Shown here in pieces: positions 27,186 through 57,495 of a stretch of 64,000 nt of DNA. Below the pieces are notes generated by a model. The model saw nothing but the letters and a program-made list of their open reading frames with translations. It searched no databases and was not told where the DNA came from. The position numbers were made by a program, and so were the translations under genes. Every line of letters begins with the position of its first letter. Position 1 is the stretch's first letter. Source of the stretch: Ancylobacter amanitiformis (lineage in GTDB: Bacteria; Pseudomonadota; Alphaproteobacteria; Rhizobiales; Xanthobacteraceae); the NCBI RefSeq assembly GCF_030814815.1, contig NZ_JAUSVR010000019.1, positions 1 through 64,000 on the forward strand, read 5' to 3'.

Positions 27186-27511
27186 CCGGCGACGCGTGGG
27201 CGCGGCCGTATCCGTCGCGAGATCTTCGCCGGGCGGATCCACAGACACCATCTTGCCGCCGGACTGGGCCCGTGCCGCTCCCGCGCGCCGGGCGTTTTCG
27301 CCGGGCATCCGCCGGGTCCGCGCCGGGTCCGCGCCGGGTCCGCGCCGGGTCTCGGCGACGTGAAGCGCGTCCCTGCCGCTTAAAGTCGTCTTTCATTGCA
27401 CCAAGTCGAGGGTTCGTACGTAGTGGGTGCGGGTGGCGCGCCCGCACCGGTCCATCTTGCCGGCGTGGGCGCGGGGCCTATGTGCTGAAGATCGAGCTGC
27501 GGGAGCTTCTC
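27186..27511. other. Spacer with no gene; contains an 11-bp repeat array
   Basis: No convincing reading frame was found here. It holds the GC-rich repeat at 27300-27354, and a less GC-rich stretch around 27385-27425 that may hold the promoter of the RibD-type gene. Confidence 0.5.
27300..27354. repeat. 11-bp tandem repeat array
   Basis: Five consecutive 11-bp units. The central three are identical GCCGGGTCCGC (27311, 27322, 27333), flanked by diverged copies at 27300 and 27344. The array lies in non-coding sequence. Confidence 0.85.
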
Positions 27512-28237
27512 TTGAATCGACGCGAAGTACCGATCGATCCGCTTTCCGCCCTCTATGAGCCGATCCTCCAGCATGGGCGGTCGACCTTCGTCATCGCCCA
27601 GCTGGGGCAGTCGCTGGATGGGAGGATCGCCACGCCGACCGGAAAATCGCGCGATATCAACGGGTGCTCGGGGCTCGATCATCTGCACCGGCTGCGGGCG
27701 ATGGTCGATGTGGTGGTGGTCGGTGTCGGCACCGTGCTGGCCGACGATCCCCAGCTCACCACGCGGCGGGTTCCGGGCCGCAGCCCGGTGCGCGCCGTCA
27801 TCGACCGTACCGGCCGCTCGCCGCGCGATTCCAAATGGCTGCAGGCCGATGGTTGTCACCGCATTGTGTTCTCGGAAAATGCGGCGGGATGGCCGGATGA
27901 GGTCGAGCGCATCTGCACCGGGGACGATCCCGACCTGTTCGAGCCGACCCGGCTGCTCGCCGCCCTGACGGCGCGCGGCCACCGCACCATTCTGGTCGAG
28001 GGCGGGGCGTCGACCATCTCGCGGTTCATCGATGCCGGGCTGGTCGATCGCCTGCATGTGTGCCTCGCCCCGATCATCCTCGGCTCTGGCCGGCCGGGCC
28101 TCGACCTCCGGCCCATCGACGAACTTGACGACGCGCTGCGCCCGCGGGCCCATGTCTATCTTCTCGACGACGGCAACATCCTCTACGATTGCGATCTGCG
28201 CAGCGCCGCCCGAGGAGGGACGCATGTCGGTCTCTGA
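27512..28237 (+). CDS. RibD C-terminal-type (DHFR-fold) reductase
   Basis: The protein is about 241 residues and consists only of the reductase half of RibD. Visible motifs are FVIAQLGQSLDGRIATPTGKSRDI (quoted in part), MVDVVVVGVGTVLADDPQLTTR, TILVEGGASTISRFIDAGLVDRL and LAPIILGSGRPG. The deaminase domain is absent, so it is not a complete riboflavin enzyme; it may reduce a pyrimidine or pterin with NADPH. The TTG at 27512 has GGGAG at good spacing; GTG at 27482 is an alternative. It overlaps the cytochrome b561 gene by 14 nt and faces the PTPS/GT cluster. Confidence 0.85.
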   Translation: MNRREVPIDPLSALYEPILQHGRSTFVIAQLGQSLDGRIATPTGKSRDINGCSGLDHLHRLRAMVDVVVVGVGTVLADDPQLTTRRVPGRSPVRAVIDRTGRSPRDSKWLQADGCHRIVFSENAAGWPDEVERICTGDDPDLFEPTRLLAALTARGHRTILVEGGASTISRFIDAGLVDRLHVCLAPIILGSGRPGLDLRPIDELDDALRPRAHVYLLDDGNILYDCDLRSAARGGTHVGL

Positions 28238-28796
28238 TGGCTTTGGTGCCCGGCCCGGCCAGGCCCGCTACAGCCTCGCCGCGCGGCGGCTGCACTGGCT
28301 GATCGCCGCCTTCATCCTGTGCCTCGTTCCTCTCGGGCTCTACATGGTCGCCCGTGGCGAGGCGACCAATTTCGATGCCGTCACCGGCTCGCTCTACAGC
28401 CTGCACAAGTTGCTCGGCTTCCTCGTGCTCTGGCTTGTCATCCTGCGCGTGCTGGTGCGGCTTCGACGGGGGGCGCCGCCGCCCGTGGCCACGCTGACGC
28501 CGTTCGAGCGTACCGCCTCGCACGCGGTGCATGGCGCGCTGTATCTGCTCCTCCTCATCGTGCCGCTGCTGGGCTGGGCCGGGGTCTCCGCCTATCCCGC
28601 GCTCGACGTGTTCGGCCTGTTCAACCTGCCGGCCATCCTGCCGCCCGACGAGGCGCTGGCGAACCGCATCCTCGGGGTCCACAAGCTGCTGGCATTGCTT
28701 CTGGCCGCCGTGGCCGGCCTGCACATCGCCGCCGCCCTGCGCCACCGCTTACTCAAGCAGGATGGCGTGATGGCGCGCATGTGGCCGCCGGGCTGA
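28224..28796 (+). CDS. Cytochrome b561 family protein
   Basis: The 190-residue protein has four membrane spans and the His residues expected to hold two b hemes (RRLHWLIAAF in helix 1, LHKLLGF in helix 2, HAVHGALYLLLL in helix 3 and VHKLLALLLAAVAGLHIAAAL in helix 4, quoted in part). Such proteins pass electrons between the quinone pool and a periplasmic partner. It overlaps the RibD-type gene by 14 nt, so the two are co-translated, which is an unusual pairing. Confidence 0.9.
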   Translation: MSVSDGFGARPGQARYSLAARRLHWLIAAFILCLVPLGLYMVARGEATNFDAVTGSLYSLHKLLGFLVLWLVILRVLVRLRRGAPPPVATLTPFERTASHAVHGALYLLLLIVPLLGWAGVSAYPALDVFGLFNLPAILPPDEALANRILGVHKLLALLLAAVAGLHIAAALRHRLLKQDGVMARMWPPG

Positions 28797-28821: not shown

Positions 28822-29658
28822 TCAGGCGCGCGCGAACACATCCTGATGGCCGATCGTCACCCCCTTGGCCGCCGCCCGCGCCATTGCCCAATCGGCAAAG
28901 GCGGCGCCGCGCTCTGGCTCGATCTCGCCCGCCGCAGACGCGATGCCGGCGGCGAGGGCGGCGATCAGCGGGGCATTCTCCTTTTTCAGCCGCCATGGGC
29001 TGTCGCCCGACCATGTGGCGTAGCCGTGCCGCGCCGCGATCTGCATCAGTGTCTTGCCGGCAGCCGGGCCCAGCGCGGGACCAAACCCCTTGTCGCCGCG
29101 CTGGTGGCGGTTGAACGCGGCTTTGACCGTCGCGTCGAGCGGATCGGCGGGCTGCCATCGCGCCGCGCCGTCATAGTTCAGCACGCCATAGAGCGGCACG
29201 CGCCGGCCGGCGAGGGCGGCCATGAGGCGCTCCAGCCACTCGCGCGAGACGAGGTCGAACAGCGCGGCCGCCGTCACCAGGTCCGCGCCGTCGGCGCCGA
29301 AATCGAGGCTGCGCGCGGTCAGGTCGGCGCATTCGAAACGCACCTCGATACGGCGGCCATCCTTTTCCAGCGTCAGGCCGTTGCCGCTCGGGCGGGCGCG
29401 GTCGGCCCAGTCCGCGAGGCATTGGCGCGCCTGCGCCAGCAGGTCGCGATCGCCGTCGATCAGGTGCCAGCGCTGGCCCTGTGGCAGCGAGGGTGACAGC
29501 GCGCGCAGGTTCGAGCCGGTGCCGCAGCCGAGATCGACGACGGTGAGCGAGGAACGGCTGTTGAAATACTGACCGACCCGCGCGGCGATTTCCGGGTTGC
29601 GCGATGCGCCATCGACAGGCTCGCGCAGCGCCAGCCACTCGGCCGAGAAGCCGCTCAT
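28822..29658 (-). CDS. Class I SAM-dependent methyltransferase
   Basis: The 278-residue protein has SAM motif I VVDLGCGTGSNLRAL at about residues 46-60 and an acidic post-I residue in WHLIDGDRDLL. The acceptor-binding region (GVLNYDGAARWQPADPLD) is unlike common families I can name. The ATG at 29658 has AGGAGA upstream and overlaps the stop of the glycosyltransferase gene as ATGA. It is the last gene of the four-gene coupled set, and its substrate is probably the product of that set. Confidence 0.85.
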   Translation of the reverse strand: MSGFSAEWLALREPVDGASRNPEIAARVGQYFNSRSSLTVVDLGCGTGSNLRALSPSLPQGQRWHLIDGDRDLLAQARQCLADWADRARPSGNGLTLEKDGRRIEVRFECADLTARSLDFGADGADLVTAAALFDLVSREWLERLMAALAGRRVPLYGVLNYDGAARWQPADPLDATVKAAFNRHQRGDKGFGPALGPAAGKTLMQIAARHGYATWSGDSPWRLKKENAPLIAALAAGIASAAGEIEPERGAAFADWAMARAAAKGVTIGHQDVFARA

Positions 29659-30773
29659 CGGGATGTCTCCTGTCGGGACGGCTCGCGCCCGGATATGTTC
29701 TGCAAGGTCGCCAGGATGATCGCCGCCGTCTGCGGCCATCGGGGGAGCGCTTGCGCGTGGCTCCAGGCGCTCTCCGCCATCTGGCGTCGCCGCTCCGGCG
29801 CGTCGAGCAGCGCACCGAGCGCGCCGGCGAGGCCCTCCGTGTCACCGGGGGGGACCAATAGTCCCGCCGCCGCCGGCACGGTGTCCGGAATGGCGCCGGC
29901 GCGGCTCGCGACGATCGGCAGGCCGCGGGCGAGCGCCTCGCTCAGGCCCATCCCATAGCCCTCGAACAGCGACGCTGAGACGAAGATGTCGGCCGCGTCG
30001 AACTGCCCGGCGAGCGCGTCCGGCGGGATCGATCCGGTCAGCGTGATGCGCCCGCCCAGCCCATGCGCGGCAATGCGCGCCTGCACGGCGTGCGTCTCGA
30101 TGGCGTCGCGGTCGGTGGCGCCGACGATGTGGCAGGTCCAGTCCCGCATCGCCAGCCGGGCCAGCGCGTCGACCAGCACGCCATGAGCCTTGCGCGGGAT
30201 CACGGCGCCGACACTGAGCAGCCGCACCGGCCGGCCCGTCCCGCGGGAAAATGTCTCGTGGGAAAATGTCCCGCGCGCGCGGGGAGCGGGATCGGTGCCG
30301 GGCCGTGCGACGGTCAAACGGTCGGGCGCGACGCCATAGTCCTGCGCCAGCAGGCGGGCGGTCGCGGGGCTGGTGGCGATCACGGCGCTCGCCAGCGCCA
30401 GCGCGCGCCGCTCGCTGATGTGAAGCGCCGCGCGTTGCCCCTCGCCCAACCCGGCTTCCAGCGCCAGCGGATGATGCACCAGCGCGGCGATGGGGTGGCG
30501 CAGGCCGCGCAGCAGGTCGGCGGGCAGCGCTCCCATGGCGAGCCCGTCGATCAGCACGGGCTGCCCGTCCGGCACGGCCGCCAGCATCTGCGCGCTGCGG
30601 TGCAGTTCGGCCGAGGAGGGAAATGGAAACCCGCCGGGCAGCGCGAGATGCGTCACCGCGTGGCCCGCGCGCCGGCATTCGGCGATCACCCGCCGGTCAT
30701 AGGCATAGCCCCCGGTGGGGAGATCGAGCGCGCCGGGAATGGCGAAGGCGAAGCCGCTCATCGCGAGGCTCAA
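29655..30773 (-). CDS. GT4-family glycosyltransferase
   Basis: The 372-residue GT-B glycosyltransferase has the nucleotide-sugar site in SLFEGYGMGLSEALARGLPIV, followed by a loop DTVPAAAGLLVPPGD, as in group 1 transferases. The acceptor is unknown. The TTG at 30773 overlaps the PTPS stop as TTGA. I prefer it because every other junction in this set is a 4-nt overlap; ATG at 30761 is the alternative. Residues near 190 contain a small duplicated stretch (GTFSHETFSRG) from a 15-bp repeat. Confidence 0.87.
   Translation of the reverse strand: MSLAMSGFAFAIPGALDLPTGGYAYDRRVIAECRRAGHAVTHLALPGGFPFPSSAELHRSAQMLAAVPDGQPVLIDGLAMGALPADLLRGLRHPIAALVHHPLALEAGLGEGQRAALHISERRALALASAVIATSPATARLLAQDYGVAPDRLTVARPGTDPAPRARGTFSHETFSRGTGRPVRLLSVGAVIPRKAHGVLVDALARLAMRDWTCHIVGATDRDAIETHAVQARIAAHGLGGRITLTGSIPPDALAGQFDAADIFVSASLFEGYGMGLSEALARGLPIVASRAGAIPDTVPAAAGLLVPPGDTEGLAGALGALLDAPERRRQMAESAWSHAQALPRWPQTAAIILATLQNISGREPSRQETSR
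30242..30271 (-). repeat. 15-bp tandem duplication inside the GT4 gene
   Basis: Two units, CGCGGGAAAATGTCT and CGTGGGAAAATGTCC, lie head to tail and are in frame. They add five residues to the glycosyltransferase. Confidence 0.75.
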
Positions 30774-31183
30774 TCGAGGCCAGCCTCAAAGCTGGCGCGG
30801 GCGAGGTCGGTTTCGTGCAGGGTGACGCGGATCGCCGACAGGCCGTGCCCGTCTTCGCCCAGCGCGCCGTCCCGCGCGGCGGCGGCCATGGCGTCGAAAA
30901 TGTACCGCGCGAGGAATTCGGTCGTGGTGAGCTGGCCGGCAAAGGCCGGCAGCGTGTCGAGATTCTGGTAGGCGAGCGGCTTGAGCGTCTTGTTCAGCAC
31001 GTCGAGCGCGGCGCCGATATCCACCACCACGTTCTTCGCCGTGAGGGTCTCGCGCAGAAAGGCGACATCGACCACGAAGGTCGCGCCGTGCAGGCCCTGG
31101 GCGGGACCGAAGAACGGATCGGGCAGCGAATGGGCGATCATGATGCGATCGCGGACTTCGACACAATACATGGCTTTCCTCAT
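30770..31183 (-). CDS. Divergent PTPS/QueD-family protein lacking catalytic residues
   Basis: The 137-residue T-fold protein aligns with 6-pyruvoyl-tetrahydropterin synthase / QueD. It keeps the first zinc His (IAHSL), one His of the HGH pair (LHGA, where the second His is replaced by Ala) and the pterin-anchoring Glu (LHETD). It lacks the catalytic Cys before HGH and the Asp-His of the triad (AYQNLD where DHxxLN is usual). It is therefore unlikely to be a normal PTPS or QueD and may bind or process a pterin differently. It overlaps its neighbours by 4 nt on both sides. Confidence 0.8.
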   Translation of the reverse strand: MRKAMYCVEVRDRIMIAHSLPDPFFGPAQGLHGATFVVDVAFLRETLTAKNVVVDIGAALDVLNKTLKPLAYQNLDTLPAFAGQLTTTEFLARYIFDAMAAAARDGALGEDGHGLSAIRVTLHETDLARASFEAGLD

Positions 31184-32166
31184 TGGTAATCGAGCAGGAT
31201 CGCCAGCGCGTCCTCCCCGTCGCCCAGCAGGTGCGGCAGCTGCGCGGGCGCCTGCGCGAACGGGACGACATGCGTGACCAGTTGGTCGAGGCGCGCATCG
31301 TCCAGTAGCGCGAGCGCCTTGGCCAGCCGGCGTTCATGCGGCCAGCGCGGCCGCCGCACAGGAGATACGGCGCCGACCTGCGAGCCGATCAGTTGCAGGC
31401 GCCGGCTGTGGAAACTTTCGCCCAGCGGAATGGCTGGCGCGCGGTCGCCATACCAGCTCACCTCGACGATCCGCGCCTCGAAGCCGCCCGCCGCCAGCGC
31501 GGTGTTGAGGCCGGCGGCGCTGGCGCTGGTGTGGAACACGATGTCGGCATCGTCGCTCACCTGCGCCGGGGTAGTGAAGGTGGCGCCGAAGAGATGCGCC
31601 AGCGCGGCCCGGCCGGGCTCGACGTCCACCAGCGTCACGTCCGCGCCGGGCAGGCCGGCGGCGAGGGCGGCGAGCAACAGGCCGACCACGCCGCCGCCGA
31701 CAATGGTGATGCGATCGCCCGGGCCGGCGCCGGCATCCCACAGGGCGTTGAGGGCGGTCTCCATGTTCGCCGCCAGCGTGGCGCGCTGGGGAGGGATGCC
31801 GTCCGGCACCAGCATGGCCGCCGCGAGCGGCAGCAGATAGACATCCTGATGCGGGTAGAGGGCGAAGATGGTGCGGCCGAGCCACTCGCCGGGACCGGCC
31901 TCGACCCTGCCCACGCTCTGGTAGCCGTACTGGACGGGGAACGGGAAATCGCCCTGCTGGAACGGCGCGCGCATGCGCTGGTGCTCGCTCGCCGGAATTC
32001 CGCCGCGCAGCACCAGCCGCTCGGTGCCGCGGCTGACGGCGGAGGCGAGCGTGCGCACCACCAGCCGGTCCGGCCCCGCGTCGTCGAGGCGCGCGCTCCT
32101 CATCTCATAGCGACCGGGCGACGCGCACCAGAGCTGCCGTGCCGATGGCCCAGACGGATGTGGCAT
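31180..32166 (-). CDS. BchC-like medium-chain dehydrogenase
   Basis: The 328-residue MDR-fold oxidoreductase has a Rossmann motif at about 150-165 (ITIVGGGVVGLLLAALA) and a GroES-like N-terminal half. In the N-terminal half the catalytic zinc Cys is replaced (SAVSRGTERLVLRGGIP), and the usual GHE is YGYQSVG, features shared with BchC-type dehydrogenases. It probably uses NAD(P)H without a conventional catalytic zinc. The ATG at 32166 (MPHPSGPS) gives a normal length. It is the first gene of the coupled dehydrogenase / PTPS / GT4 / methyltransferase set and is divergent from opgH. Confidence 0.82.
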   Translation of the reverse strand: MPHPSGPSARQLWCASPGRYEMRSARLDDAGPDRLVVRTLASAVSRGTERLVLRGGIPASEHQRMRAPFQQGDFPFPVQYGYQSVGRVEAGPGEWLGRTIFALYPHQDVYLLPLAAAMLVPDGIPPQRATLAANMETALNALWDAGAGPGDRITIVGGGVVGLLLAALAAGLPGADVTLVDVEPGRAALAHLFGATFTTPAQVSDDADIVFHTSASAAGLNTALAAGGFEARIVEVSWYGDRAPAIPLGESFHSRRLQLIGSQVGAVSPVRRPRWPHERRLAKALALLDDARLDQLVTHVVPFAQAPAQLPHLLGDGEDALAILLDYQ

Positions 32167-32317
32167 TGCGGACCCTGCTCCCGTGCCGCACTGTCCCTCC
32201 CGACAGGGGTGGACGGCGGTTTGATCCGAGACGGCGTGAACCGTCGGCGTCCGGCTGCGTACAAGCACCGACAGGCTTCCCGCAAGGGATTGGTCTGCAC
32301 GGATCAGAGTGGCCGGC

Positions 32318-34129
32318 ATGAGCGTGAATGAAAAGCCCGTAGAACGCCTGTTCGCCCGTGCCGGTGCCGCCGGGGACCTGACGCCGACCGGCGCGCAGTC
32401 CCGCCGGCAGCTCTTCCGTCGGCGCCTGCTGGTCGCGGTGCTCAACGCGGCGACCTTCCTCGCCCTCGTCGCGCTGTTCACCCGCCTGCTGGCCCATGGC
32501 GGCTTCACCCCGCTGGATGGGCTGCTGCTGCTGGCCTTCTGCCTCTCCACCCCGTGGACGATCCTCGGCTTCTGGAACGCGGGCATCGGCCTCTGGCTGC
32601 TGCACGGCCCGGGCGATCCGCGCCTTTCGGTCTATCCCTATGCGGCAAAGGCGGCGGAGGACGCGCCGATCACCGCACGGGTCGCGGTGGTGATGACGCT
32701 GCGCAACGAGGATCCCGCGCGCGCCATCGCCCGCCTGCGGGTGATGCGGGAGGATCTTGCGCGCGCCGGCGCCGGCGGCGATTTCGCCTGGTTCGTGCTG
32801 TCCGACACCACCCGCGCCGACATCGCCGCGCAGGAGGAAGCGATTGTCGCGGCCTGGCGGGCGGAGATCGGCGCGGGCGCGCCGCTGCACTACCGCCGCC
32901 GCAGCGACAATCAAGGCTTCAAGGCCGGCAATATCCGCGATTTTCTCGAACGCTGGGGCGATGATCACGATCTGATGCTGGTGCTGGATGCCGACAGCCT
33001 GATGGGGGCTTCCAGCGTCCTGCGGCTGCTGCGCATCCTGCAGGCCAATCCGCGGCTCGGCATCCTGCAGAGCCTCGTCGTGGGCCTGCCCTCGGCCTCG
33101 CCCTTCGCGCGCATCTTCCAGTTCGGCATGCGCCATGGCATGCGCTCCTACACGATGGGGGCGTCGTGGTGGGCGGGGGATTGCGGACCCTATTGGGGGC
33201 ACAATGCGGTGATCCGCATCGCGCCGTTCAAGGCGCACTGCGCCTTGCCCGTGCTGCCGGGGCGCGGCCCGCTCGCGGGTGACGTTCTGTCGCATGACCA
33301 GATCGAGGCGGTGCTGATGCGCCGCGCCGGCTATGAGGTGCGGGTGCTGCCGGAGGAAGGCGAGAGCTATGAGGAGAATCCGCCGCACCTGACCGAGTTC
33401 ACCCGCCGCGACCTGCGCTGGTGCCAGGGCAACATGCAGTACTGGCGGCTCCTCGCCATGCCCGGCCTGCTGCCGATGAGCCGCTTCCAGATCGCCTGGG
33501 CGATCCTGATGTATGTCGGCGCGCTGGCCTGGATCGCCTTCATGGTTCTCGCGGCGCTGAAGGCCTTCGACACCGAGCGGTTCGATGAGCCGTTCCCGGC
33601 CGGGCTCGGGCTCACGCTGTTCGCCATCACCTTCCTGATGAGCCTTGCGCCGAAGATCGCCGGGCTGATCGACGTGCTGCTGCGGCCGGGGGAGCGACGG
33701 CGCTATGGCGGCGGCGGCCGGCTGCTCGGCGGCGCGCTGGTGGAATTCGTCTTCTCCGTGCTGCTCGGCCCCGTCGTCGCGCTGCGGGTGGCGATCTTCA
33801 TGGTGGGCCTCGCCTTCGGCCGGACGGTGACGTGGGACGCGCAGGCCCGCGATGCCGTGCGGCTGTCGTGGCGCACCGCCCTTGCCGGGCTATGGCCGCA
33901 GCTGGTGTTCGGCGCGGCCATAGCCGGCATTCTCACCGCCGCCGTGCCGGCCGCCCTCGTGTGGGCGCTGCCGGTGCTGGTCGGCCTTGTCAGTGCCGTG
34001 CCCTTCGCGGTGCTGACTTCCGAGCCGGCGCTCGGCCGCTGGCTCATGCGGCGCGGCCTGTGCGCGACGCCGGAGGAGCGGGCGCCGTCGCCCTGCCTGG
34101 CGGCGCTCGATGGGCAACAGCTTCCGTAA
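32318..34129 (+). CDS. opgH: Glucans biosynthesis glucosyltransferase OpgH (MdoH)
   Basis: The protein is about 603 residues. Two N-terminal membrane spans precede a cytoplasmic GT2 domain with VVMTLRNEDPARAI, the metal site LVLDADSLM, LSHDQIEAVLMRRAGYEVRVLPE (quoted in part) and the RRDLRWCQGN motif. About five more spans follow. OpgH links glucose units into the periplasmic glucan backbone and exports them. It is usually encoded with opgG; no opgG is adjacent here. The ATG at 32318 lies three codons after an alternative GTG. The gene is divergent from the BchC-like dehydrogenase. Confidence 0.92.
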   Translation: MSVNEKPVERLFARAGAAGDLTPTGAQSRRQLFRRRLLVAVLNAATFLALVALFTRLLAHGGFTPLDGLLLLAFCLSTPWTILGFWNAGIGLWLLHGPGDPRLSVYPYAAKAAEDAPITARVAVVMTLRNEDPARAIARLRVMREDLARAGAGGDFAWFVLSDTTRADIAAQEEAIVAAWRAEIGAGAPLHYRRRSDNQGFKAGNIRDFLERWGDDHDLMLVLDADSLMGASSVLRLLRILQANPRLGILQSLVVGLPSASPFARIFQFGMRHGMRSYTMGASWWAGDCGPYWGHNAVIRIAPFKAHCALPVLPGRGPLAGDVLSHDQIEAVLMRRAGYEVRVLPEEGESYEENPPHLTEFTRRDLRWCQGNMQYWRLLAMPGLLPMSRFQIAWAILMYVGALAWIAFMVLAALKAFDTERFDEPFPAGLGLTLFAITFLMSLAPKIAGLIDVLLRPGERRRYGGGGRLLGGALVEFVFSVLLGPVVALRVAIFMVGLAFGRTVTWDAQARDAVRLSWRTALAGLWPQLVFGAAIAGILTAAVPAALVWALPVLVGLVSAVPFAVLTSEPALGRWLMRRGLCATPEERAPSPCLAALDGQQLP

Positions 34130-34191
34130 CGGTCGAGCCCTGCGCCGCCTGCCGTGGCCGGCGACGCCGGGTCGGGTCTCACTCCAGTCGC

Positions 34192-34259
34192 GCCTCAGTC
34201 CAGGTGGTGTCTCACTCCAGGTGGTGTCTCACTCCAGGTGGTGCCTCACTCCAGGTGCC
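34192..34259. repeat. 17-bp tandem repeat, 3' of cytochrome c gene
   Basis: Four 17-bp units related to GTCTCACTCCAGGTGGT begin at 34192, 34209, 34226 and 34243; the middle two are identical. The last unit holds the stop codon and last codons of the cytochrome c gene, and a further diverged partial copy lies near 34176. Confidence 0.9.
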
Positions 34260-35583
34260 GGAAGCGGGCGATATCCGCCGCTGTCAGCGTCGAGGCTTCG
34301 CTTCCGAAACGCGCGGTGACGTAGTTGGCGACGGCGGCCACCTCCGCATCCGAATAGGCGCGGCCGAAGCCGGGCATATAGGGATGTGTGGCGGCCAGCG
34401 GGCCGGAACCGTTGAGGACCATCAGCGCGACATTGGCGCCGCTCGGGTCGTTGACGGCGCGCACGCCGGTGAGCCCGGCCTGCTCGCGCACCGCGCCGGC
34501 ACCGCTCCAGGCATGGCAGCTGGCGCAATTGCCCTCGAACATGCGCTGGCCCAGCGGATTGTCGAGGCCCGCGACCTGCGGCGTGGCGGGGGCCGGGCCG
34601 GCGAGCCGGGGCAGGTTGCTGGCAACCGGGGGCACGCTCTTCAGATAGGTGACGATCGCCTGGATATCCGAGGGCACCAGCTGCGACAGGCTGAGCGCGA
34701 CGGCCTCGCCCATCGGCCCGGAGGCGACGCCCCGGCCCGTCGCATGGCCGGCGGCGAGATAGGCGGTGAGCTGCTCCACCGACCAGTCACCGATCCCGCT
34801 CACCCCGTCGCTGGAGATGTTGTAGGCGTTCCAGCCCTCGGCGACGCCTCCGGCGAATTTGCGCCGCTGGTCCATCGCCTGCATCAGGTTGCGCGGGGTG
34901 TGGCACTCGCCGCAATGGCCGGCCGCCTCCACGAGATAGGCGCCGCGGTTCCATTCCGGCGACTGTTCGGGCACCGGCTCGAAGCGGGTGTCCGAATTGA
35001 ACAGCGTCGCCCAGATCGCCATCAGCCAGCGCTGGTTGAAGGGAAAGGCGAAGCTGTTCGGCCGGTTCGGCTGCTTCACCGGCGCGAGCGCGAACAGATA
35101 GGCCTTGATCGCCAGCGCATCCGCGTCGGTCAGCATGGTGTAGGACGGATAGGGGAAGGCCGGATAATAGCGCGAGCCATCCGGCGCGATGCCGCGATGC
35201 ACGGCGTCGAGGAACTGGGCGTCCGTCCACTTCCCGATGCCGGTCTCGGGATCGGGCGTGATGTTCGGCGTGTAGATGGTGCCGAAGGGCAGCACGAAGG
35301 GTCGCCCGCCGGCGAAGGGCTGGCCGCCCTTGGCGGTGTGGCAGGCCTCGCAATCGGCCATGCGGGTGATGTAGGCGGCGCGGGTGGGCTGATCGGCGCC
35401 GGCCAGCTCGGCCGGCACGCCGGTCGGCGAGGGGCGCGCATCCTCGGCCAGCGCCACTGGCGTGCCCGTGGCGAAGCCGTAGGGGCCGGGCTGGAACACC
35501 ATCCAGCCGATGACGCCGAGCGCGGCGACACCGACAACCACGAGGATGCCGGCGAGGGAGAGGAGGACGGTTCTTTTCCGCAT
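34246..35583 (-). CDS. Triheme cytochrome c
   Basis: The 445-residue protein has one N-terminal membrane helix (about 8-30) and three c-heme sites: CEACH (about residue 78), CGECH (about 225) and CASCH (about 360). This is the layout of the cytochrome subunit of membrane alcohol/aldehyde dehydrogenases. It accepts electrons in the periplasm from the molybdenum hydroxylase encoded 2 nt upstream and passes them to the respiratory chain. Its final codons lie within a 17-bp tandem repeat. Confidence 0.93.
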   Translation of the reverse strand: MRKRTVLLSLAGILVVVGVAALGVIGWMVFQPGPYGFATGTPVALAEDARPSPTGVPAELAGADQPTRAAYITRMADCEACHTAKGGQPFAGGRPFVLPFGTIYTPNITPDPETGIGKWTDAQFLDAVHRGIAPDGSRYYPAFPYPSYTMLTDADALAIKAYLFALAPVKQPNRPNSFAFPFNQRWLMAIWATLFNSDTRFEPVPEQSPEWNRGAYLVEAAGHCGECHTPRNLMQAMDQRRKFAGGVAEGWNAYNISSDGVSGIGDWSVEQLTAYLAAGHATGRGVASGPMGEAVALSLSQLVPSDIQAIVTYLKSVPPVASNLPRLAGPAPATPQVAGLDNPLGQRMFEGNCASCHAWSGAGAVREQAGLTGVRAVNDPSGANVALMVLNGSGPLAATHPYMPGFGRAYSDAEVAAVANYVTARFGSEASTLTAADIARFRHLE

Positions 35584-35585
35584 GG

Positions 35586-37775
35586 TCAGACCGCCTTTGC
35601 CAGGAGCGCCGCGTCGACCGGCATGCGGGTCAGCTGCACGCCGGTGGCCGCGAAGATCGCGTTGGCGACCGCCGGCTGCACGATCACCGTGCCGGGCTCG
35701 CCGATGCCGCCGGGTTTTTCGGTGCTGGCGACCAGTTCGACCTCGATGGCGGGCATCTCGTCGATGCGGATCAGCCGGTAGTCGTGGAAATTGCTCTGCT
35801 CGACCCGCCCGTCGGCGATCGTGACCTTGTCGTGCAGCACGGTGGTGATGCCGAAGGTGACGCCGCCCTGGATCTGCGCCACCACCGTGTCCGGATTGAT
35901 GACGCGCCCGACATCGGCGGCGACCACGATACGGGTCACGCGCACGTCGCCTTGATCGCTCACCGCGATATCGGCGATGCAGGCGAGATAGCTGCCGAAG
36001 GCATGCATCAGCGCGACGCCCCGGCCGGTGCGGGCGCCGAAGCGGGAGGCGGGTGCCGGCGTGCCCCAGCCGGCTTTCGCCGTCGCGGCATTCAGCACCC
36101 CGAGCGCGCGCGGGTTGTCCGCCAGGAGGCCGCGCCGGAAGGCGACGGGATCGACCGAGGTATTCCGGGCGATCCGATCGAGGAAGCTCTCGATCGAGAA
36201 GACGCTGCTATTGGGCCCGACGCCGCGCCAGAAGCCGACCGGCACCACGCTCTCGTGGCGGATATATTCCACCAGAATGTCGCCGACGGCGTAGGGCGGA
36301 TCGATGGCGCCGTCCACCGCATCGCCGTCAATGCCGTCCTTGAAGGCCGGCGGCAGCCAGCGCGCCAGGATCGAGGCGCCGGTGACACGGTGGTGCCAGG
36401 CGGTGATGCGCCCGTTCTCCACCCGCGCCTTCAGCCGGTCGTGATAGAGCGGGCGGAAGATGTCCTGCTTGATGTCTTCCTCGCGCGACCAGATCACCTT
36501 GACCGGCCCGTCCACCTTGGCGGCGATGCGGGTGGCGGTGACGACATAGTCGGCTTCCAGCCGCCGGCCGAAGCCGCCGCCGATAATGTGGTTGTTGATC
36601 GTCACCTTCGAGGGATCGATGCCGAGCACCTTGGCGGCGCCCATCTGGGAGAAGCCGGGCACCTGCGTGCCCACCCACACCTCGCAGGCGCCGTCCTGCA
36701 CATGCACGGTGCAGTTCATCGGCTCCATCGGCGTGTGCGCGAGGAAGGGCAGTTCATAGGTCGCCTCGAACAGCGTGCCCTCGCCGAGCTTCGCCAGCGC
36801 GTCGCCCTGCTTCTGGGCGGCGACGCCGGGGCCTTTCGATGCCGTCTCGATATCGGCCCAGAGCTGCGCCTGGGTCAGCGTGGCGTTCGGCCCGGGCGAC
36901 CAGTCGACCTTGAGCGCGGCGAGGCCCTGCTGGGCGGCCCATGTGTTGTCGGCGACCACCGCCACGAGATCGTCCAGCACCACCACCTGCCGCACGCCCG
37001 GCTGGACCAGCGCCGGGGCCTCGTCGACATGGGCGACCGTGCCGCCGATGACCGGCGATGCCATCAGCGCGGCGAATGCCATGCCGGGGCGGATGACGTC
37101 GATACCGTACACCGTCTTGCCGGTTGCCTTGTCCGGCGTGTCGATGCGGTGCGCGGGCGTGCCGATGAGGCGAAACTGGTCCGGCGACTTGAGCGTCACT
37201 TCCGCCGGGGGCGGCAGCACGGCGGCCCGGTCGGCGAGGGCACCGTAGGTCCATGTCCGCCCGCTGGCGGGATCGGTGACGATTCCCTTGTCGGTGACGA
37301 GGCCGGCCGGGTCGACACCCCCTTCGGCCGCGGCCGCCGCCACCAGCAGGGCGCGCGCGGTGGCGCCGGCCTTTCGCAGCGGCTCGGTCCACGCCATGGT
37401 GGTGGTGGAGCCGCCGGTGGCCTGCACGACGAAGAGCGGGTTGCCGTACTTGGCCTGATCGGCCGGCGCATGGACCGCGACGATCTGGTCGAGCGTGATG
37501 TCGAGTTCCTCGGCAAGGCACATGGCCTGCGAGGTATAGACCCCCTGTCCCATCTCCACGGCCGGCATGATGAGGCGCACCGGCCCCTCCGCCGGCACAT
37601 GCACGAAGGCGTTGAGCGGCGCGCCGGCCGGGGCGGGTTCGTCGGCCCGGGCGACGCGCATCGGCAGTTCGATGCCGATGACCAGCCCGCCGACGAAGGC
37701 GGCTCCCCCGCGCAGCAGCGAGCGACGCGTCAGCACTGGACGGCCGAGGCGTGTGTTTTCAGGATCGTGCCGCAT
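35586..37775 (-). CDS. Molybdopterin-binding oxidoreductase large subunit (IorB-like)
   Basis: The 729-residue xanthine-dehydrogenase-family subunit is of the isoquinoline 1-oxidoreductase/aldehyde dehydrogenase type. It begins with a twin-arginine signal ([20 protein letters not shown]). Cofactor motifs include [16 protein letters not shown] and the catalytic Glu in [19 protein letters not shown]. The twin-arginine signal, and a partner without one, mean that the folded complex is exported together. GAGGGG precedes the ATG at 37775, and the gene overlaps the iron-sulfur subunit by 17 nt. Substrate (aldehyde or N-heterocycle) is unknown. Confidence 0.92.
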
Positions 37776-38211
37776 GCTTGATCCCCTCGCGAATGCGCAC
37801 ATAGGTGCCGCAGCGGCACAGGTTGCCGGCCATTGCCGCGTCAATGTCGGCATCGTCCGGCGCGGGATTGGCGGCGAGCAGGGCCGCCGCCGACATGATC
37901 TGGCCGGGCTGGCAATAGCCGCACTGGATGACTTCGAGATCGAGCCAGGCTTTCTGGATCTTCGTGCCCTCGGGCGTCGCGCCGATACCCTCGATGGTGG
38001 TGATCGCCTGCGTGCCGACATCGCCCACGGCGAGCTGGCAGGAGCGCACGGCGACGCCCTCGAGATGCACCGTGCAGGCCCCGCACTGGGCGATGCCGCA
38101 GCCGAACTTGGTGCCGGTCATTCCCAGCACGTCGCGCAGCACCCACAGGAGCGGCGTCTCGGCCGGAACATCCACGCTGTGAGGCGCGCCGTTAATGGTG
38201 AGATCGGTCAT
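37759..38211 (-). CDS. [2Fe-2S] small subunit (IorA-like)
   Basis: The 150-residue protein has a plant-type ferredoxin domain (about 1-75, [16 protein letters not shown]) and a helical domain with the second cluster ([16 protein letters not shown] and CRCGTYVRI). It passes electrons from the molybdenum site to the cytochrome c. It has no signal peptide and probably leaves the cell with the large subunit. It is the first gene of the three-gene unit. Confidence 0.93.
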
Positions 38212-55739: not shown

Positions 55740-55767
55740 GCCGGCCGGTGCGCCAATGCCGGCCGGC
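55740..55767 (+). other. Intercistronic hairpin between persulfide dioxygenase and SQR
   Basis: GCCGGCCGG (55740-55748) pairs perfectly with CCGGCCGGC (55759-55767) across a 10-nt loop. No T-run follows, so it is more likely an mRNA processing or stability element, or weak attenuation, than a full terminator. Confidence 0.5.
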
Positions 55768-55803
55768 AGCGGTCGCCCCTTCCACGAGATGGAGGAAACT
55801 CCC

Positions 55804-57495
55804 ATGACGTCGAAACAGATCGTGCCGGAATTTCACGTGCACGGCGCATTGGACGAGCCGGGCCTTGCCGAAGCCGCCGCCGCTGGCTACCGCGCCATCA
55901 TCTGCACACGTCCCGATGGGGAGGATCCCGGCCAAATGGAAGCCGCGGAAGCGGCCGTGCTGGCCGAGGCCCTCGGCATGGCCTTCGTGCACATCCCGGT
56001 GACGCCGGGCACTTACAGCGACGCCGATGTGGCGACGATGCGCACCATGCTCGACCGCCTGCCCAACCCGATCCTCGGCTATTGCCGCAGTGGCACGCGG
56101 GCGGCGACGCTGTGGGCGCTGGCCGAGGCGGGGCGGCGGAGCCCGGACGAGATACTGGCGCTAAGCTCCGCCGCCGGCATCGACCTTTCCGGCCAGCGCG
56201 CCCGCCTTACGGCCCTGGACAGGGGGATCCGCCCCGGCGCACCGAAGACCTATGACGTGGTCATCGTGGGAGGCGGCGCGGCCGGCATCGCCACCGCCTC
56301 CAGCCTGCTCAAGCGCCGACCCTCGCTCGACATCGCCATCGTCGAGCCGGCGGAGTGCCATTACTACCAGCCGGGCTGGACCATGGTCGGGGCCGGCGTG
56401 TTCCAGCCGGATACCACCCGCGTGCCGATGGGCGCGGTGATGCCCGATTCCGTCACCTGGATCCGGCAGGCCGCCGCCGGCTTCCTTCCCGAGGCCAAGG
56501 AGGTCGCTCTCGCGGACGGCTCGTCCGTGCGCTACCGCGTGCTGGTCGCCGCGCCCGGCCTGCGGCTGGCGTGGGAGGCCATTCCCGGCCTGCCCGAGGC
56601 GCTCGGCCGCAACGGCGTCACCTCGAATTACCGCTTCGACCTCGCCCCCTACACGTTCCGCCTCGCCAGCACGGTGAAGTCGGGCCGCGCGCTGTTCACC
56701 CAGCCGGCCATGCCGATCAAATGCGCCGGCGCGCCGCAGAAGGCGATGTACCTGTCCTGCGACATCTGGCGCGGCGCCGGCGTTCTGCCGCGCATGAAGG
56801 TGGAGTTCCATAATGCCGGCGGCGTGCTGTTCGGCGTGCCGGCCTATGTTCCCGCGCTGATGGAATATGTCGAGCGCTACGGCATCGACCTCAATTTCGC
56901 CTCCACGCTCGTCGGCGTCGATGGCGATACGCAGGTGGCGACCTTCGAGCGCCGGGGAAGCGACGGCGGCACCGAGCGGGTGGAGCGCTCCTTCGACATG
57001 CTGCACGCCGTGCCACCGCAAAAGCCGCTCGACGTCATCGCCGCCAGCCCGCTGGCGGGCGCGGGTGGCTGGATCGAGGTCGATCCGGCGACGCTGCGCC
57101 ATGTTCGGTACCCGGACATTTTCGCCCTCGGCGACGCCACCAACACGCCGAACGCCAAGACCGCCGCCGCCGCGCGCAAGCAGGCGCCTGTCGTGGCGGT
57201 GAATGTGCTCGCGGCGCTGGAGGGCAAGGCGCCCGCCGCCCAGTATGACGGCTACGGCTCCTGCCCGCTCACGGTGGAGCGCGGCAGGATCGTGCTGGCC
57301 GAGTTCGGCTATGGCGGCGCGCTGATGCCCACCTTTCCGCGCTGGATCCTCGACGGCTCGCGTCCCACGCGCCTCGCTTGGTTCCTCAAGGACCGCATGC
57401 TGCCGCCCATCTACTGGCACGCCATGCTGAAGGGCCGGGAGTGGCTGTGCCGGCCCGAGCCGATCGCGGCCGGGCCGAGCCGCGAGGCCGCGTGA
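55804..57495 (+). CDS. sqr: DUF442 sulfurtransferase/phosphatase-like domain fused to sulfide:quinone oxidoreductase
   Basis: The 563-residue protein has two parts. Residues about 1-145 are a DUF442 domain with the PTP-like loop GYCRSGTRAA. Residues about 153-555 are an SQRDL-type sulfide:quinone oxidoreductase with FAD motif VVIVGGGAAGIATAS, CHYYQPGW, and the redox Cys set in IKCAGAPQK, YLSCDIW and YGSCPLT. It oxidises sulfide to a persulfide at the membrane and passes electrons to quinone; the fused domain may hand the sulfane sulfur on. GGAGG precedes the ATG. The next gene, a sulfite exporter, overlaps as TGATG. Confidence 0.92.
   Translation: MTSKQIVPEFHVHGALDEPGLAEAAAAGYRAIICTRPDGEDPGQMEAAEAAVLAEALGMAFVHIPVTPGTYSDADVATMRTMLDRLPNPILGYCRSGTRAATLWALAEAGRRSPDEILALSSAAGIDLSGQRARLTALDRGIRPGAPKTYDVVIVGGGAAGIATASSLLKRRPSLDIAIVEPAECHYYQPGWTMVGAGVFQPDTTRVPMGAVMPDSVTWIRQAAAGFLPEAKEVALADGSSVRYRVLVAAPGLRLAWEAIPGLPEALGRNGVTSNYRFDLAPYTFRLASTVKSGRALFTQPAMPIKCAGAPQKAMYLSCDIWRGAGVLPRMKVEFHNAGGVLFGVPAYVPALMEYVERYGIDLNFASTLVGVDGDTQVATFERRGSDGGTERVERSFDMLHAVPPQKPLDVIAASPLAGAGGWIEVDPATLRHVRYPDIFALGDATNTPNAKTAAAARKQAPVVAVNVLAALEGKAPAAQYDGYGSCPLTVERGRIVLAEFGYGGALMPTFPRWILDGSRPTRLAWFLKDRMLPPIYWHAMLKGREWLCRPEPIAAGPSREAA

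Follow-up and report, generated by a model that had tools for sequence, protein, structure and literature searches.

A conserved gene set around a PTPS-IV tunnel-fold protein in Ancylobacter amanitiformis and its putative pterin-type pathway

Analysis of a 64,000-nucleotide stretch of the Ancylobacter amanitiformis genome (contig NZ_JAUSVR010000019.1, positions 1 to 64,000; hereafter, the window) revealed four closely packed minus-strand genes at 28822-32166 that encode, in transcription order, a medium-chain dehydrogenase/reductase (MDR), a PTPS-IV tunnel-fold protein (PTPS), a GT4 family glycosyltransferase and a class I S-adenosylmethionine (SAM)-dependent methyltransferase (MT), with genes for a reductase-only RibD and a cytochrome b561 facing them. 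That MDR, PTPS-IV, MT and, mostly, this RibD type form one unit, beyond chance, is well supported by the comparison of gene content among genomes. The unit probably serves a single GTP-derived pterin or pyrimidine pathway, and on balance we somewhat favor the view that its genes form the core of a dedicated route that starts from GTP and leads to a pterin-type small molecule, O-methylated and in most cases glycosylated, for which GTP cyclohydrolase I is perhaps not needed. Support is good at the level of a pathway; the chemistry and the product we infer from the enzyme types.

Co-occurrence, gene order and spread of the set

We sampled 289 genomes of the class, among them that of the window. 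PTPS (E ≤ 1e-8) was detected in 36, and MDR (E ≤ 1e-20) was found in exactly the same 36 genomes and in none of the 253 others. The MT (E ≤ 1e-8) was present in 33 genomes, all of them among these 36, and RibD of this type (E ≤ 1e-28, a limit chosen after the first results) in 32, namely, 30 of the 36 PTPS genomes plus G127 (74% complete) and G278 (a weak match, 1.3e-30), both of which were counted as exceptions. The Fisher p values for co-occurrence with PTPS, in which relatedness is ignored, were 9e-47 for MDR, 3e-40 for MT and 2e-32 for RibD. Since RibD lies ~62 kb from PTPS in G028 and MT ~63 kb from PTPS in G233, the link between these genes goes beyond position; in the draft genome G035, MDR and RibD are located on contigs other than the PTPS contig.

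A scan of species genomes revealed at least 583 confirmed stretches carrying a PTPS relative. Eighty loci were kept, mainly from Alphaproteobacteria but including Polynucleobacter, metagenome-assembled genomes of Burkholderiaceae and Alcaligenaceae, and Xanthomonas sp. AmX2; together with 35 genomes of the class sample, eight plasmids and the window, they form a neighborhood set of 124 loci, some of them on short contigs. MDR stands directly before PTPS in 110 of these loci, and the complete order MDR-PTPS-GT4-MT is found in 87. The same order occurs on plasmids of Streptomyces fungicidicus, Microbacterium, Candidatus Thiodictyon (Gammaproteobacteria), Agrobacterium and Methylosinus (here with the fourth protein annotated as 'hypothetical'), and a Rhodobacteraceae plasmid carries it minus GT4; it is found in Alpha-, Beta- and Gammaproteobacteria and in Actinobacteria. 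In two Paracoccus loci (L121 and L129), one strand encodes an inositol-monophosphatase-family protein (PF00459), GTP cyclohydrolase II (GCHII; PF00925 in L129), MDR, PTPS, MT and RibD, with no GT4.

The first-pass annotation of the window had proposed a single shared pathway for these genes, and both the co-occurrence of MDR, PTPS, MT and RibD in the 289-genome sample and an order conserved across phyla strongly support that proposal; the synteny is present outside A. amanitiformis as well. In a quick MDR tree (109 loci, midpoint root, 29 of 106 inner branches open), the nearest relatives of the window sequence are those of Ancylobacter, and the beta-, gamma- and actinobacterial copies are nested inside the alphaproteobacterial spread, which suggests transfer of the unit. 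The gene unit has probably moved between phyla.

Gene layout and encoded proteins in the window

The features of the window that concern the set are as follows.

31180..32166, minus strand: MDR of a dedicated family (profile matches, relatives, AlphaFold2 model)
30770..31171, minus strand: PTPS-IV tunnel-fold protein with FGPAQxxHGA replacing CxxxHGH (PF01242; start from relatives)
29655..30761, minus strand: GT4 family glycosyltransferase (PF13692/PF00534)
28822..29658, minus strand: class I SAM-dependent MT of a dedicated family, N-terminal FSxxWLxLREPxD (PF13649)
~27482..28237, plus strand: reductase-only RibD (RibD_C; start codon uncertain, GTG at 27482 used)
28224..28796, plus strand: prokaryotic cytochrome b561 (PF01292), overlapping the 3' end of the RibD gene
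32167..32317, no strand: divergent intergenic region of ~150 bp separating the GT2 gene from the MDR operon, likely the promoter region (from the sequence)
32318..34129, plus strand: MdoH/OpgH-like membrane family 2 glycosyltransferase (GT2), divergent from MDR (ATG at 32318; GTG at 32309 also possible)

The enzyme types that had been assigned to the four minus-strand genes were confirmed, and the types of the facing RibD_C-only protein and cytochrome b561 were also right, with both genes lying just outside 28822..32166. The four genes had further been described as joined by three 4-nt overlaps, of which one stands: the ATGA overlap of GT4 and MT at 29655-29658, with AGGAG ahead, is well supported by the window and its relatives. 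At the MDR/PTPS junction, an in-frame ATG is present at 31183 (this longer form of PTPS was the search query), but the family sequence begins at the second ATG (31171), 8 nt past the MDR stop and preceded by AGGAAA. Five Ancylobacter relatives differ here: L073 and L083 have the upstream ATG in frame, L072 has it out of frame, and L074 and L076 lack it; an overlap at this junction appears doubtful. At the PTPS/GT4 junction, a TTG is present at 30773, but the start position of the relatives corresponds to the window ATG at 30761, the likely start, 8 nt past the PTPS stop. No open TTG start was found at this junction in L072, L073 and L083, which begin at GTG, and the GT4 start overlaps the PTPS stop in L074 (GTGA), L076 (TTGA) and Methylosinus L155 (ATGA). 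With either set of starts the operon is tight, and co-transcription of the four genes is very likely.

Ordinary PTPS enzymes use a catalytic Cys and an Asp-His pair and anchor the pterin through a C-terminal Glu. Across the 124 PTPS loci, the motif FGPxx..HGA was present in 123 sequences (FGPAQ in 120, FGPAR in two and FGPGQ in one; the remaining L153 has FGSAQ..HGA), and all 123 have no Cys among the 10 residues that precede HG and lack both HGH (the third zinc His) and the Asp-His pair, whereas the C-terminal Glu is conserved in at least 90% of the alignment. Because the catalytic residues are lost while the fold and this Glu are kept, PTPS-IV is a reprogrammed tunnel-fold protein, for which the name 6-carboxytetrahydropterin synthase, given in 14 of 20 plasmid records, is unsupported; annotation as a queuosine enzyme is very probably wrong. 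The window protein, the sole PF01242 match of its genome (70.4 bits, cut-off 22.4), gave an AlphaFold2 model with a mean pLDDT of 94.3. The nearest solved chain is 3d7j (SCO6650, presumably a Streptomyces coelicolor protein, to go by the name tag), which matched at E 2.3e-58 over profile positions 1-132 of 134 and carries FGPAQ in the alignment, so that we read it as PTPS-IV itself. FGPAQ is named as the signature of the PTPS-IV subfamily in PMC5445326, and this signature, together with the near full-length match to 3d7j, makes the window protein a member of PTPS-IV (COG0720). The available parts of PMC5445326 and PMC5041015 describe no MDR-PTPS-GT4-MT operon for PTPS-IV; the latter mentions, as unpublished work, that PTPS-IV serves archaeal F420 synthesis and calls the role of PTPS-V unclear. 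Two Streptomyces plasmids carry PTPS-IV homologs without the MDR operon (L153:12001-12426 and L157:10001-10399), in each case with a MEKHLA-domain gene and cupin genes nearby, a context that possibly represents a second use of the fold.

Against Pfam, the MDR has ADH_zinc_N as its best match, a weak one at 30.2 bits (cut-off 31.8). Its relatives are annotated as 'zinc-binding alcohol dehydrogenase'. The MDR family typically holds zinc through Cys and His ligands; in our motif reading, S-R-G-T-E and Y-G-Y occupy their usual positions. The label 'BchC-like' given in the first-pass annotation holds for the shared superfamily but not for BchC proper, since bchC (TIGR01202), although the best NCBIfam match, scored 42.7 bits against an equivalog cut-off of 291.25. 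The AlphaFold2 model (mean pLDDT 93.1) is nearest in fold to secondary-alcohol and polyol dehydrogenases; the 50 matches listed include xylitol dehydrogenase (7y9p) and TarJ (6xhk), whose substrate is ribulose/ribitol 5-phosphate. Four solved chains were listed for GT4, and the best of them is a D-inositol 3-phosphate glycosyltransferase, the acceptor of which is a polyol phosphate. The MT matched PF13649 with 36.5 bits (cut-off 27), and no close relative of it was found in the search of solved chains.

The RibD protein consists of the RibD_C domain only (143.5 bits); the N-terminal deaminase domain of bifunctional RibD was not found in it by Pfam at E ≤ 0.1. It is closest to 6p8c, named 2,5-diamino-6-ribosylaminopyrimidinone phosphate reductase (E 2.5e-26), and to 2azn (2.4e-20), and farther from the chains named bifunctional RibD, 2hxv (2.2e-16) and 2o7p (1e-14). 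Its score against TIGR01508, the curated model for 2,5-diamino-6-ribosylaminopyrimidinone phosphate reductase, was 99.5 bits (cut-off 186.45), and it conserves SLDGR and DDPxLTxR-type motifs, which we take to be those of ribosylaminopyrimidine reductases. The cytochrome b561 scored 98.5 bits against PF01292.

Neighboring genes and substrate supply

Profile searches within 9 kb of PTPS, with some profiles built from one or two seeds, revealed MDR in 112, GT4 in 112, MT in 110 and RibD in 77 of the 124 loci, along with the MdoH-like GT2 (64), cytochrome b561 (53), GCHII (50), FkbM methyltransferase (39), CDP-alcohol phosphotransferase (23), sulfatase-annotated (13), creatininase (8) and flippase-like (8) genes. 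GT2 and CDP-alcohol phosphotransferase never occurred together, and 37 loci had neither (Fisher p 4e-9 for mutual exclusion, relatedness ignored); on the MDR tree, at least four switches from one to the other are required when the loci with neither are left uncounted. The 25 aligned CDP-alcohol proteins conserve what we take to be the catalytic motif of the family. The GT2 type of the window has one match in its own genome, and a relative is annotated as mdoH; ordinary OpgGH periplasmic glucan synthesis was rejected because this 99.98% complete genome contains no match to OpgG/MdoG (PF04349). Counts for an ABC exporter as a partner were not used, as the single-sequence query matches any ABC ATPase.

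Several other observations concern the surroundings. A protein without a Pfam match (L096:6056-7144) recurs near GT2-type clusters, in 28 of the 124 loci. In the window, a tandem array of a 17-bp unit, GTCTCACTCCAGGTGGT, with 4.9 copies at 34176-34257, lies between the genes for GT2 and a cytochrome c, and a tandem repeat at 27299-27351 with an 11-bp unit, CGCCGGGTCCG (3.8 copies at 27310-27351), lies upstream of the RibD gene. At 34246-38211 lie genes for a xanthine-dehydrogenase-like enzyme (cytochrome c, molybdopterin-binding and [2Fe-2S] proteins), and 55756-57495 encodes a BLH-phosphatase domain fused to a pyridine-nucleotide-disulphide oxidoreductase domain.

The number of loci with GCHII as a neighbor falls from 50 to 46 if the odd-looking L054, L077, L091 and L114 are left aside, and in our reading of the sequences, the cluster GCHII of L096 and others has an N-terminal region resembling a degenerate RibB. 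In the window's own genome, the RibB part of the RibBA protein looks intact, and its GCHII part is without the CxTGD/CxC zinc motif. Profile matches gave the following two GCHII-like proteins.

G000:C9:111386-111829: GCHII-like protein (L068)
G000:C14:37690-38115: GCHII-like protein (L069)

The only other GCHII match of this genome looks like another type, URC1. The same genome has two creatininase-family genes. A Tyr/Met switch in GCHII as the explanation for the clustered creatininases gave only a partial fit: Met reportedly yields a formylated product in work on the Streptomyces coelicolor enzyme (not confirmed in the literature searched), and L152 combines RAM with a creatininase, but three other loci combine RAY with one. 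According to PMC9478397, the creatininase-family formamidase BrbF serves riboflavin in Sinorhizobium and Brucella; creatininase-family genes near eight of the 124 sets resemble this route, although their role is only putative.

Proposed pathway and alternative explanations

In the proposed pathway, GTP would be converted to 2,5-diamino-6-ribosylamino-pyrimidinone 5'-phosphate by a clustered GCHII or, in the window strain, this compound would come from the riboflavin supply. RibD_C would reduce the ribosyl group to a ribityl chain, MDR would oxidize the C2' hydroxyl to a ketone, and the 5-amino group would condense with C2' on PTPS-IV, closing the ring to give a 7,8-dihydroneopterin-type phosphate. 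The reduction and oxidation would together be a redox-neutral replacement for the Amadori rearrangement of GTP cyclohydrolase I; by chemical reasoning, the C2'-oxidized ribityl chain would be the same compound as the Amadori product of that enzyme, there a triphosphate. As this ketone position lets the 5-amino group close the pteridine ring, PTPS-IV would need only to close the ring, a role that fits the loss of the side-chain-cleaving residues. We put these three steps forward tentatively, as a possible but doubtful mechanism. The phosphate would be removed in some hosts by a phosphatase, the side chain methylated by MT and glycosylated by GT4, and a membrane enzyme (the MdoH-like GT2 or the CDP-alcohol phosphotransferase) may conjugate the product further.

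A glycosylated, methylated pterin, one of the two products suggested in the first-pass annotation, would be the natural reading of these enzyme types; the Paracoccaceae sets lack GT4. Its other suggestion, a deazapurine-like product, was not borne out: no QueC, QueE or QueF type was recognized in the 34 largest neighbor clusters, which were inspected by eye with no search aimed at them. Pathways of pteridine glycosyltransferases share with ours a pterin glycoside as the expected kind of product, but they glycosylate tetrahydrobiopterin, and we know of no MDR, PTPS-IV, RibD and MT operon among them. Examples are CtPGT of Chlorobium (PMC5683033) and the cyanobacterial pterin glycosides (PMC13259868). 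No paper on the present gene set or its product was found in the literature searched, most subscription journals being outside its coverage; as first suggested, no known pathway of this make-up came to light there, and the PTPS subfamily alone is in print, as PTPS-IV, in PMC5445326 and PMC5041015. The fold families, PTPS-IV and structure 3d7j are therefore already known, and the pathway is what was not found in print.

A number of observations weigh against the pathway as proposed. The MDR count scored at most seven candidates per genome, no MT match was obtained in G053, G246 and G277, and the RibD type was not found in six of the 36 cluster genomes (G064, G096, G175, G231, G233 and G271, one of them 68% complete) or in the searched surroundings of the Streptomyces plasmid set L152, which implies that RibD is not obligatory or is replaced. 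GT4 is missing from 12 of the 124 loci, some on short contigs, and the likeness of MDR to polyol dehydrogenases is shared by the whole superfamily (600 matches at E ≤ 0.001). A GCHII of at least 150 bits, a cut picked after the scores had been seen, was present in 28 of 33 cluster genomes (G000, G053 and G064 being left out of the 36) against 19 of 44 others (p 3e-4), a weak contrast given those 19 and the fact that some of the 44 genomes are small or less than 90% complete. In the window strain, no GCHII is clustered with the set and no ordinary GCHII is visible in the 99.98% complete genome, so the substrate would need another route there, e.g., of the BrbF type. Finally, creatininase, which one would expect with a GCHII that does not remove the formyl group, is found near GCHII of the ordinary RAY type as well (L039, L060 and L061).

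One alternative is a conventional start, in which GTP cyclohydrolase I provides dihydroneopterin triphosphate for conversion by PTPS-IV to a new 6-substituted pterin, with MDR modifying the side chain, RibD_C serving as a dihydropterin reductase and GCHII being a mere neighbor. We regard both this start and these enzyme roles as rather unlikely: the published PTPS motif residues and the catalytic residues are gone from PTPS-IV, RibD resembles the ribosylaminopyrimidine reductases in its motifs and in its closest chain, 6p8c, and the recurrent neighbor is GCHII (FolE and FolE2 were not profile-searched, and their absence is not shown). RibD_C, however, belongs to the dihydrofolate reductase superfamily, which favors such a start. 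So do, in PMC5445326, the use of dihydroneopterin triphosphate by PTPS relatives and the report of FolE2 in PTPS-IV gene neighborhoods. Alternatively, the ring might not be closed at C2' at all, and the product might be an 8-ribityl-lumazine, a flavin-like compound or an open diaminopyrimidine glycoside. The RibD_C protein type and the GCHII found beside 46-50 of the 124 sets are indeed of the riboflavin branch, and the RibB-like N-terminus of some cluster GCHII proteins points the same way; yet MDR, PTPS-IV, MT and GT4 accompany them instead of a deaminase and lumazine and riboflavin synthases, neither synthase being recognized by eye in the 34 largest neighbor clusters, with no aimed search made near the sets. 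Since the core also includes a tunnel-fold protein with the C-terminal Glu, we consider this alternative improbable.

That PTPS is simply QueD or a folate enzyme, placed beside sugar-related genes by chance, is extremely improbable: the public annotation and its status as the sole PF01242 match of its genome would suit this, but the QueD (PTPS-I) model scored 27.9 bits against a cut-off of 89.25, the protein has HGA, no Cys and no CxxxHGH, and MDR co-occurs in 36 of 36 genomes and in none outside; the folate role was likewise rejected on motif and score. A further alternative is a periplasmic-glycan or glycolipid system in which the pterin-like enzymes would supply a decoration or a redox cofactor, as GT2 or CDP-alcohol phosphotransferase, never both, accompanies 87 of the 124 loci and FkbM methyltransferase, flippase-like and sulfatase-annotated genes recur. 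Against it, the 37 loci with neither gene (some on short contigs) and the Paracoccus operons, which show no GT2 or CDP-alcohol gene, have to be set, as does the 'sulfatase' of L154, which has no Pfam match; moreover, neighborhood is no proof of a common product, and this system also seems unlikely to us.

A variant of the proposed pathway, which we consider very unlikely, would fix a methylated pterin glycoside, made without GTP cyclohydrolase I, in the cell envelope, with cytochrome b561 feeding it electrons. The equally speculative anchor would be either a phospholipid, via the CDP-alcohol phosphotransferase, or a periplasmic glycan, via the MdoH-like GT2, the two being interchangeable modules. 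If this variant were true, the pterin would be held in the membrane and act there as a redox cofactor or a light screen. A gene of a dedicated pathway whose product was not found in print is carried by 36 of the 289 sampled genomes, approximately one in eight, and by at least 583 stretches from species genomes. With this operon, the role of PTPS-IV can be tested directly, and a second route to pterins could emerge.

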